Assembly: GCA_945881865.1 (NCBI GenBank)
Contig: CAMCVK010000009.1
Location: 1 to 64,000 of the forward strand
DNA length: 64,000 nt
Direction of reading: 5' to 3'
Source of the DNA: Fimbriimonas ginsengisoli Gsoil 348
GTDB taxonomy: Bacteria > Armatimonadota > Fimbriimonadia > Fimbriimonadales > Fimbriimonadaceae
Below are positions 14,006-17,138 of this stretch, piece after piece (positions within the stretch are counted from its first letter, which is position 1; each line of letters begins with the position of its first letter). Below the pieces are notes generated by a model. It was not told where the DNA came from, did no database searches, and saw nothing but the letters and a program-made list of their open reading frames with translations. The position numbers were made by a program, and so were the translations under genes.

Positions 14006-14063
14006 TGCCTTACACTCTGCAACCCAAACCTAGCTGAAGCTTGGAAACAGCCGCGCAGTTCGA

Positions 14064-14100
14064 GACAGGGGATCGAGTTCCATGAACCCGATCCCCTGTC
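14064..14100 (+). terminator. Strong hairpin after the helicase gene
   Basis: GACAGGGGATCG (14064-14075) pairs with CGATCCCCTGTC (14089-14100), and the loop extends the stem by GTTC/GAAC with one mismatch. TTGTT follows, so the T-run is weak. Likely terminator for the plus-strand gene; it may also insulate the minus-strand pair. Confidence 0.65.
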
Positions 14101-14155
14101 TTGTTACAACTCGCTGCAAGATCTCGATGATGTTGACTTGATTCGTTGGAAAGGT

Positions 14156-14395
14156 CTAGGCTTTTTCGAATGTTACGGTCCGCGACATTTCGACCTGGAT
14201 GACGCGGAAACCTGCTTTCATCCATGAGTGCGCTTGCACGTGCTGCCCGTTTTCCTCATTTGACCACCAAGCCCGATGGTTGTAGGCCGATGCGGGCAGT
14301 TCCCCGACCAAGCTGCTGATCTCGTCAAACGTCATTGTGACGCTGCTATCTACACTTGATTGAAGCTTTTTAAATAAGGGCTCGTATTTGTGCAT
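14156..14395 (-). CDS. DUF7662-like small protein
   Basis: 79 residues. YEPLFKKLQ, then TMTFDEISSLVGELPASAYNHRAWWSNE and a Trp-Met-x-Ala-Gly end (SWMKAGFRVIQVEM) fit the small family in which HRAWW and W.AG.RV are invariant, often seen next to restriction or nuclease genes. It starts 3 bases after the GIY-YIG gene stop, so they form one transcript. AT-richer than its surroundings. Biochemical role unknown. Confidence 0.75.
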   Translation of the reverse strand: MHKYEPLFKKLQSSVDSSVTMTFDEISSLVGELPASAYNHRAWWSNEENGQHVQAHSWMKAGFRVIQVEMSRTVTFEKA

Positions 14396-14398
14396 GAA

Positions 14399-15205
14399 CT
14401 ACTCTTCTTCCTTGGCATCGATGGCCTTTGCCAAGACTCCAAGCAACTCTTGTTTGTGATGGTTCTTAAGGGCCGGGTCAGTTCGTTGCAAGTACTCAAT
14501 ACCGCCTAGACCCTTGCCTTGCTGCCGATTTTGAGGAGGCTCGTTTAGCTCAATCAAAACAGCTTCCAGAACGGAAATGACTCCATCTAAGTCAAGCTTC
14601 GCGTCACCAGGAGCCTCGAGCTTCCCATCAGCCTTTACTGCGTGGAAGCCGAACCAAGAGAAACGGTCCCAACGTGATCGGAGCCGATCAAGGGTGTGGT
14701 CTCGAATACGCGATCCAAGCGTCTGAGCCGTTGCACGCCCTACGTAAACCAGGTTCCGGTGGTCGAACAAAATGTAAATCCCGCGCTGCTCTCCCAAGTC
14801 AACAACGGCCGAATTCTCGAACTGCTGCCCAAGAAGCTTCGTACTCACCTTTTTCCAGTCCACGGCTGCTCGATCCCAATAGATGCCGTACGCCTGCACC
14901 GCAATTCCTAACGGTGTAACGGAAGGTTCTATTTCGATTTCATCAATTACAGGCTGATGGCCCTGCTGCTGCCATTTCCTGAGGCCATAGACGCCCCTCG
15001 ACGTCCTGACGAACCTGGAATTCTCTCCCTTCTTCTTGTCCTCTGAGAATTGCGCCGCAACCGTAAAGACCGGTGTTGCTCCTGCTTTTTTGCGAAGCTC
15101 TTGGCGGAGAATCTCCTCGGTAATGTCCAAGTAACTCATCGGCTCTCCAGCACCGTCCAGAACTCTTTCTATCGCCTCATCCCATGTCAAGTTGCCCAGT
15201 GCCAC
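14399..15205 (-). CDS. HARE-HTH domain protein fused to a GIY-YIG nuclease domain
   Basis: 268 residues, GTG start. Residues about 4-78 match the HARE-HTH (HB1/ASXL/restriction endonuclease) winged helix: LTWDEAIERVL, MSYLDITEEIL, SRFVRTSRGVYGL. Residues about 140-230 are a GIY-YIG fold: GIYILFD (142-148), VYVGRA (153-158), an Arg in RIRDH, catalytic Glu E214 in VLEAVLIEL and the EPPQN end (N226). The combination of a DNA-reading HTH with a nuclease resembles modification-dependent restriction. Lower GC than its neighbours. A possible -10, CATACT, lies six bases before the start. Anti-phage function is inference. Confidence 0.8.
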   Translation of the reverse strand: MALGNLTWDEAIERVLDGAGEPMSYLDITEEILRQELRKKAGATPVFTVAAQFSEDKKKGENSRFVRTSRGVYGLRKWQQQGHQPVIDEIEIEPSVTPLGIAVQAYGIYWDRAAVDWKKVSTKLLGQQFENSAVVDLGEQRGIYILFDHRNLVYVGRATAQTLGSRIRDHTLDRLRSRWDRFSWFGFHAVKADGKLEAPGDAKLDLDGVISVLEAVLIELNEPPQNRQQGKGLGGIEYLQRTDPALKNHHKQELLGVLAKAIDAKEEE

Positions 15206-15422: not shown

Positions 15423-17138
15423 CTACGCCGACGGAACGACGTCGCGATTCGGGTGCATGATCGCGCTTTGGTCCGGACGTTCGAGCGGCAGATAGGCTGC
15501 CTCCGGATCGCAAGAGCACCGAACCCAGCCATCGTTGGCCATAGTTTCTAACGCGCTGAAAGCGGAAGACAGCCACTGGTTCGCCTCGGCGGGGCCGATC
15601 CCGGCTTGCCAGCATTTCTCATCAACCGCCGTGTAGAAGTGCTCCAGCGTCGGATTCTTCTTGAGAATCTCAACCACCAAGCCGTAGATGCCTTCGAGCG
15701 GCAAGCGGCGAGAATCGCGCTCGTAGGCGCGGTACCGATCGATGCGGCCGCCCGTCATTCGCGCCACCCAAATCTTTTCGCTACCGTCAAGATCAAGCGC
15801 AAAGACGTTCATGCCGCCAATCGCCCACTTGCCGTCGGTGTGACCCCACCAGGTCGTCAGCTCTCGGACCGCGATTAAGTTGTAGCCGGCCAGACCGTTT
15901 AGGCCGGAGTCTTCGTCCAAAAAGCCGCCCGTACCCAGCCATCGCCATGCCTCTTTCGGATCCAACTCCAGCCCCGCGTCGCGTGCAATCTCGCTGGTGA
16001 ACGCTTGCAGCTCGCTGAACTGGCCGTTCGCGGTGTACCAGTAGTCAGCGAAACGAATATGTTGGTTGATCTTTCGCCGTTGCGCGTCGTCGTAACGATG
16101 GCGGAGCCAATCCTCCGGGTAGTCCCGTCGTTCCAGGGCCAGAATCGTGTAGGCAACGTCGCGCGCCCCCACGTGGGCGAGCGTCATTCCCGCAGCCAGG
16201 ATCGGATCGGCAAAACCGGCACTTTCGCCGGCGAGGAACCAGTTTTCGCCAACCATCCGGTCACTGATGAACGACCAATCCTTCGTCGTCGCGAGTTGAC
16301 CCTCGGAGGTTGCGTTCTTCAGCAAGCGAGCAATGTTTGGCTCCTCGGCGATCGCGTTGGCATACAGTTCCGCGGGCTTGATGCCTCGGCGTTTGTACTC
16401 GGCAGCGGGGAGAATGAGGCCCACGCTGGTGCGCGTTGGGCCAAGCGGGATGAACCAGATCCATCCGTAACCCAGCGACATGACTTGTACTCGCGTCCCG
16501 CCGACGCCAATCTTTACCGCCCATTCGGCGTTCTGCCAGTAATCCCAAATGGCAATGTTCTGCAACGAGGTCGGGGCCTTGACCTCGACGCCCATCGCGC
16601 GACGAATCAGCCCGGCGTGGCCGCTGCAATCCACAAAGTGCTTTGCCGTCACGGTTTCGCCGTCACCCAAGGTCAGAGATTCAACACGATCGCCGTCTCG
16701 TTGGATGTGCGTAACCCGCATGCCTTCAAAAACTTTCGTACCAAGTTCTTTGGCATGGTCCAAAAGGATCTTGTCGTAAATGGCGCGGTCGACTTGGAAT
16801 GCGGTCTCCCGGCGCTGCCCCTCATATTTGCCGGGGCGGGGCGCGTCATGAAAATTGCCGTTCGGCAGAAATTCGAAGTCCCAAAGCTCCGGCGTTGTGC
16901 CCCATCGGTAGGTCGCTCCGATCTTGATGGGGAAGTTTGCGCGCTCAACCTTGTCCCAAACCCCCATTTCGTCGAGGATCACGGAGATGTACGGCAACTG
17001 GCTTTCACCCACGTGGTCCCGCGGGAAGTTCTCCCGCTCGAACACCGCAACCGAGAGCCGAGGGTTGTACTTTCGCAGAAGGGAAGCACACGTAGAACCC
17101 GCCGGGCCACCGCCAATGATCACTACGTCGTAATGCAC
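15423..17138 (-). CDS. FAD-dependent halogenase / oxidoreductase
   Basis: 571 residues from GTG 17138. N-terminal Rossmann motif IIGGGPAGST (7-16), then RDHVGESQLPYI as in FADH2-dependent halogenases, and GYGWIWFIPL, which contains the WxWxIP signature that blocks mono-oxygenation in halogenases. GESAGFADPILAAGM is the second FAD motif. These features point to the variant-B/phenolic halogenase branch, but no natural-product genes are next door, so the substrate is unknown; a non-halogenating monooxygenase remains possible. TATCAT five bases before the start suggests a leaderless mRNA. Confidence 0.75.
   Translation of the reverse strand: MHYDVVIIGGGPAGSTCASLLRKYNPRLSVAVFERENFPRDHVGESQLPYISVILDEMGVWDKVERANFPIKIGATYRWGTTPELWDFEFLPNGNFHDAPRPGKYEGQRRETAFQVDRAIYDKILLDHAKELGTKVFEGMRVTHIQRDGDRVESLTLGDGETVTAKHFVDCSGHAGLIRRAMGVEVKAPTSLQNIAIWDYWQNAEWAVKIGVGGTRVQVMSLGYGWIWFIPLGPTRTSVGLILPAAEYKRRGIKPAELYANAIAEEPNIARLLKNATSEGQLATTKDWSFISDRMVGENWFLAGESAGFADPILAAGMTLAHVGARDVAYTILALERRDYPEDWLRHRYDDAQRRKINQHIRFADYWYTANGQFSELQAFTSEIARDAGLELDPKEAWRWLGTGGFLDEDSGLNGLAGYNLIAVRELTTWWGHTDGKWAIGGMNVFALDLDGSEKIWVARMTGGRIDRYRAYERDSRRLPLEGIYGLVVEILKKNPTLEHFYTAVDEKCWQAGIGPAEANQWLSSAFSALETMANDGWVRCSCDPEAAYLPLERPDQSAIMHPNRDVVPSA

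Follow-up and report, generated by a model that had tools for sequence, protein, structure and literature searches.

The region at positions 14,156 to 15,205 of the window (the whole stretch of 64,000 nucleotides that was analysed) is best explained, in our view, as encoding a restriction-like endonuclease that works as a single gene and is possibly modification-dependent, together with a small DUF7662 protein that would be an interchangeable accessory DNA-binding subunit. We give this reading a probability of about 0.45. The nuclease joins a HARE-HTH domain to a GIY-YIG domain and has relatives in many phyla. The DUF7662 family is recurrently fused or adjacent to nucleases of differing folds: HNH, GIY-YIG, DUF4268, PD-(D/E)XK-like, and PIN. 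This association is a more interesting result than the specific pair found here. The parts are ordinary; the architecture is a new variant.

The nuclease and its active site

The preliminary description of this locus proposed that a HARE-HTH/GIY-YIG nuclease and a DUF7662 protein form a small defence pair. Both open reading frames are real, their coordinates are exact, and the domain assignments were upheld. The features are as follows.

14399..15205, minus strand: HARE-HTH / GIY-YIG endonuclease gene; open reading frame of 268 amino acids, GTG start, TAG stop; 81 full-length relatives, catalytic residues conserved
14972..15187, minus strand: HARE-HTH winged-helix domain, residues 7-78; PF05066, 60.5 bits
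14471..14899, minus strand: GIY-YIG catalytic domain, about residues 103-245; motifs, relative L009 passing PF01541, weak Foldseek matches
14774..14782, minus strand: GIY motif G142-I143-Y144; G in 82/82, Y in 81/82
14738..14746, minus strand: YIG-type motif Y154-V155-G156; Y and G in 82/82
14708..14710, minus strand: R166, expected catalytic arginine; 82/82
14564..14566, minus strand: E214, expected metal-binding glutamate; 82/82
14528..14530, minus strand: N226, expected active-site asparagine; 81/82
14393..14401, minus strand: junction TAG-TTC-ATG, nuclease stop and DUF7662 start, read from the sequence
14156..14395, minus strand: DUF7662 gene; open reading frame of 79 amino acids, ATG start; PF24698, 82.9 bits; AlphaFold pLDDT 91.4
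14063..14101, no strand: 18-bp inverted repeat from a repeat search, fold z -6.6, between the convergent helicase gene and DUF7662

The HARE-HTH domain lies far above its Pfam cut-off (60.5 bits against 25.9), and its model has a winged-helix fold resembling those of linker histone H1/H5, Z-alpha, and RNAP delta (Z 8-9.5). Support for the GIY-YIG domain is indirect. This part of the window protein falls below the Pfam cut-offs (GIY_YIG_2, E 0.12), and the PF01541 matches in its own genome do not include it. Plasmid pDMC2 of Solidesulfovibrio magneticus encodes a full-length relative (L009) that shares 35% identity with the window protein; it scores 31.7 bits with PF05066 and 28 bits with PF01541 (cut-off 22.6), above the threshold in both cases. 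Furthermore, in an alignment of 82 full-length sequences (80 relatives, L009, and the window protein), G142, Y154, G156, R166, H170, and E214 are invariant, while Y144 and N226 are present in 81. Since the active site is essentially invariant among the relatives, we regard the assignment made from these motifs as firm. The glutamate singled out earlier as catalytic, E214, is one of the invariant residues. The subfamily is also marked by a WDRFSWFG block.

The AlphaFold model of the nuclease is confident (mean pLDDT 88.8). Foldseek matches it weakly to the GIY-YIG structures of UvrC (prob 0.35-0.44), and a second structure comparison was dominated by the HARE-HTH part. Sequence searches of the PDB, with the nuclease and DUF7662 as queries, gave no match.

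From these features we infer how the enzyme might work. The N-terminal winged helix would bind duplex DNA, most likely at a modified base, and the C-terminal GIY-YIG domain, using one metal ion, would cut near the bound site through Tyr144, Tyr154, Arg166, Glu214, and Asn226. As in type IV systems, a candidate modified-base reader and a nuclease are combined in one protein with no obligate methylase partner. By analogy, it is probably a modification-dependent enzyme of the restriction type, which would destroy foreign DNA carrying unusual marks. PF00145 and PF02384 methylases are absent from the host, which shows one partial PF01555 match. This lack fits the tolerance of a modification-dependent nuclease, and proves nothing.

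Relatives and neighbourhoods of the nuclease

When used alone as a query, the window protein gave no close relative in the genome contigs or in the viral contigs. A profile made from four relatives was needed. It revealed 229 confirmed nuclease loci in a set of 84,980 species, a lower bound that comes from a pattern scan. The best 80 of the 229 were kept, and every one holds a full-length copy (252-362 amino acids as called). The full-length architecture is preserved in 81 relatives, which share about 35-56% identity with the window protein. The family is scattered over about 19 phyla and is patchy at closer range, with copies in 1 of 61 near genomes and in 3 of the 291 genomes of Armatimonadota. 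On the tree, the phylum label changes 30 times, where the minimum would be 18 and shuffling gives a mean of 51. Hence, the labels are clustered without being clean, a pattern compatible with vertical descent combined with repeated transfer.

The nearest relative (56% identical) comes from an Armatimonadota bin, and the same protein also occurs in a genome of the same family (L155). Immediately downstream of it is a type I hsdM gene. Across the 80 loci there is no recurrent methylase neighbour, and no single family of neighbours is shared by more than 6 of them. The enrichment beside known defence genes that the preliminary description suggested looking for is not clear: PADLOC finds few restriction-modification genes among the 147 nearest neighbours and a similar number among 147 genes further away, a weak comparison, since the caller of open reading frames was crude and the distant genes lay on the same contigs.

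This HARE-HTH/GIY-YIG family is widespread and little-described. The fusion may have been noticed earlier, possibly in the founding HARE-HTH paper (Aravind and Iyer 2012). With at least 229 loci in about 19 phyla, the family would offer ready candidates for modification-dependent restriction enzymes, whose reader domain differs from that of the enzymes tested so far.

A few related sequences deserve mention in their own right. In another genome of the phylum, a stop codon stands in place of the GIY tyrosine of the nuclease copy (L154, G221:C20:6006-6764), reflecting either a broken gene or an assembly error. Methylorubrum extorquens AM1 has a relative devoid of HARE (L010:4001-4522), which has no annotation in the plasmid table and is flanked by an open reading frame for a DinB-like polymerase and by a convergent one with an NPPY adenine-methylase-like motif. 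Other HARE-less relatives (L011:4001-4495, L098-L101) occur as lone genes in Synechococcus phages, where they sit amid structural genes and next to that for the portal, and in viral contigs.

The gene pair and its setting

The two genes are tightly packed. At the junction (...GAAGAG-TAG-TTC-ATG) the start of DUF7662 lies 3 nt downstream of the nuclease stop, and the two open reading frames share the same frame, so that a single TAG separates them. The sequence GGAAGAAGAG, just 5' of the DUF7662 start, may be a ribosome-binding site. We infer that the genes are co-transcribed, because the gap is 3 nt and both are on the same strand. A scan for sigma-70 promoters found none.

GC content is 0.49-0.55 across the pair versus about 0.57-0.65 on the flanks, as expected from the claim of lower-GC DNA. 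The DEAD-box helicase gene is convergent with the pair, and between them is a strong 18-bp hairpin (14063-14101), which is likely to be a bidirectional terminator or to have a stabilising role. In a synteny comparison, five relatives had no window gene from beyond the helicase downstream of their helicase, so an empty insertion site cannot be demonstrated. The neighbouring halogenase gene (window positions 15423-17138) is tryptophan-halogenase-like. Its family is greatly expanded in some genomes of the same genus, with up to 18 matches in one of them; this genome has 5, two of which lie next to each other and may be fragments of a single broken copy.

The pair does not recur in the loci and genomes covered. 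DUF7662 was found near the nuclease in none of the 80 neighbourhoods, which extend up to 8 kb on each side and less at contig ends. Among the 291 genomes of Armatimonadota, 3 have the nuclease, 17 have DUF7662, and one, the genome of the window, has both; an overlap of at least one genome is expected by chance with a hypergeometric P of 0.17. In the wider set, 2 of 50 other nuclease-bearing genomes hold DUF7662, in neither case adjacent to the nuclease. Co-occurrence, the check set beforehand, is thus not above chance, and the proposal of an undescribed two-gene system joining this nuclease to DUF7662 in defence is not supported. This particular combination is a single case, perhaps an incidental one. 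Since DUF7662 is missing from all other nuclease neighbourhoods examined, it is not needed for the basic activity of the nuclease. What stands of the proposed partnership is a looser form, in which DUF7662 is a module that recurrently accompanies nucleases by fusion or adjacency, the present pair being one example.

DUF7662 as a partner of nucleases

The family assignment of the small protein is clear, with a match to PF24698 over almost its entire length (cut-off 26 bits). Its AlphaFold model is confident and consists of a helix, a strand, helices, and then a two-strand hairpin. The best structural match is the winged helix of the RepE/Pi plasmid initiators. This match is weak (Z about 5) and may merely reflect a common arrangement. 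DUF7662 is accordingly described here as a predicted small winged-helix-like domain. A kinship with HARE-HTH was considered, as both resemble winged helices in the models, but profile comparison gave no sign of it (hhalign probability 0.2%). Our literature search found no paper mentioning DUF7662.

Fusions of DUF7662 to nucleases are of several kinds. Both domains exceed their Pfam cut-offs in the fusions to HNH_2 (L012, L184) and to DUF4268 (L183), and the cut-offs are also exceeded in L013, where DUF7662 is joined to DUF6884 and GIY_YIG_2. Two further arrangements with GIY-YIG fall below the cut-off and show recognisable motifs: one is represented by L163 and L182 (E 0.078 and 0.0077), and the other by L008, detected by motif only, and L180 (E 0.0011). 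Three proteins (L158, L162, L164) carry an N-terminal part that is PD-(D/E)XK-like by motif, with a DpnII-MboI match at E 0.025 in L162. L172 probably carries such a part at its C-terminal side, judging by motif. Against these stand fusions of DUF7662 to GNAT (L181), to CBS (L170), and to a beta-helix protein (L167). One protein has two tandem DUF7662 domains (L165:1180-1986).

The association extends to separate genes. DUF7662 genes directly adjoin an HNH_2 gene (L152, in which DUF7662 contains a stop), a DUF4268 gene (L157), and a gene that is GIY-YIG-like by motif (L151). In Bosea (L171:1438-2345), the DUF7662 gene occupies the antitoxin position and has a 4-bp overlap with a PIN-domain gene. 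When the window is excluded, 4 of the 14 stand-alone copies (L015, L017, L150-L152, L157, L159, L161, L166, L171, L173-L175, L177) adjoin a nuclease gene. The corresponding P of about 0.004 rests on an assumed background of 5% and on a hand count in which some copies are mutually related. With that background, it is suggestive only of stand-alone DUF7662 being near nucleases more than expected. Others, among them L150, L159, and L174, have no nuclease in view.

How could DUF7662 act in the window? Presumably translated from the same message as the nuclease, it would serve as an additional DNA-binding subunit of winged-helix-like fold, helping to target or restrain the enzyme, in the same role as in the DUF7662-nuclease fusions. 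Because it is fused in cis to nucleases, it would act on the DNA of the nuclease and would not be a pure inhibitor. The two proteins may interact physically. More generally, DUF7662 may be a helper of nucleases. A bolder and rather doubtful idea is that it is an interchangeable DNA-targeting module, used in cis or in trans by nucleases of at least four folds to attack invading DNA that bears a particular mark or structure. The pair described here would then have two readers, one built into the nuclease and one supplied as a separate subunit. If DUF7662 is a targeting module, its binding target would assign functions to many small unannotated genes.

Alternative explanations

The main competitor to our preferred reading shares with it a restriction-like nuclease that works alone, and takes the adjacent DUF7662 gene to be incidental and separately acquired. 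We consider this a live possibility. It accounts for the distribution in the 80 neighbourhoods, in the 291 genomes, and in the 50 other nuclease-bearing genomes described above, and for the occurrence of DUF7662 away from any visible nuclease. It sits less well with the spacing of 3 nt on the same strand and with the four stand-alone copies that adjoin nucleases elsewhere, under the background assumed for them. The same adjacency of a small protein to a nuclease could recall a toxin-antitoxin-like pair, in which DUF7662 inhibits or represses a nuclease that harms its host, and the arrangement in Bosea resembles that of such operons. Yet the regular small partner of a type II toxin-antitoxin system was not found, as DUF7662 is near none of the 80 nuclease loci and such an antitoxin is therefore not generally required. 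The fusions in cis to nucleases and the gene order here, with the nuclease first, also argue against this idea, which we regard as improbable.

Two other explanations concern the nuclease itself, and both seem to us very unlikely. GIY-YIG is a common fold of homing endonucleases, and the domain-only relatives occur singly among phage structural genes (L011) and in viral contigs, as a free-standing homing or selfish enzyme might. However, the 80 loci share no recurrent target gene or flank, and to our knowledge HARE-HTH is not the usual DNA-binding domain of homing endonucleases. A role in host DNA repair or recombination could be suggested by the presence of the GIY-YIG fold in UvrC and the weak match of the model to it, but the family is too patchy in the near genomes and in the phylum for housekeeping repair. 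Hence, of the two functions offered in the preliminary description, modification-dependent restriction agrees with the union of DNA-reading and DNA-cutting domains, and DNA repair is less likely. We retain as the preferred reading a single-gene, restriction-like nuclease with DUF7662 as an accessory subunit.

Comparison with known systems

The closest likeness is at the level of architecture, with the type IV enzymes Ahi29725I and Apa233I. These wH-GIY-YIG proteins have been shown experimentally to be 6mA-dependent nucleases, which cleave DNA containing G6mATC, at a distance that varies (PMC11037411). As here, a single gene encodes an N-terminal winged-helix reader followed by a GIY-YIG nuclease. 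The readers differ: theirs is a DpnI-type wH that senses G6mATC, whereas ours is a HARE-HTH, a putative reader. For HARE-HTH, cytosine modifications are thought to be a more likely target (PMC11037411).

HARE-HTH domains on restriction nucleases have been proposed to read modified bases (PMC10853773). The HARE-HTH-PD-(D/E)XK restriction enzymes of Dnd and BREX neighbourhoods (PMC10853773, PMC12839542) thus have the same proposed reader of modified DNA as the enzyme described here. They differ in the fold of the nuclease and in their context, since our enzyme is usually alone and was seen in no Dnd or BREX setting. The EVE-GIY-YIG fusions, which are putative type IV systems (PMC7641849), also join a modified-base reader to a GIY-YIG nuclease, with EVE in the place of HARE-HTH. 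Finally, the DUF7662-GIY-YIG fusions that we identified (L163/L182, L008/L180, and L013) bring together DUF7662 and a GIY-YIG nuclease, as in the window. They do so within one polypeptide, with other GIY-YIG subfamilies and without HARE-HTH, unlike the pair described here.
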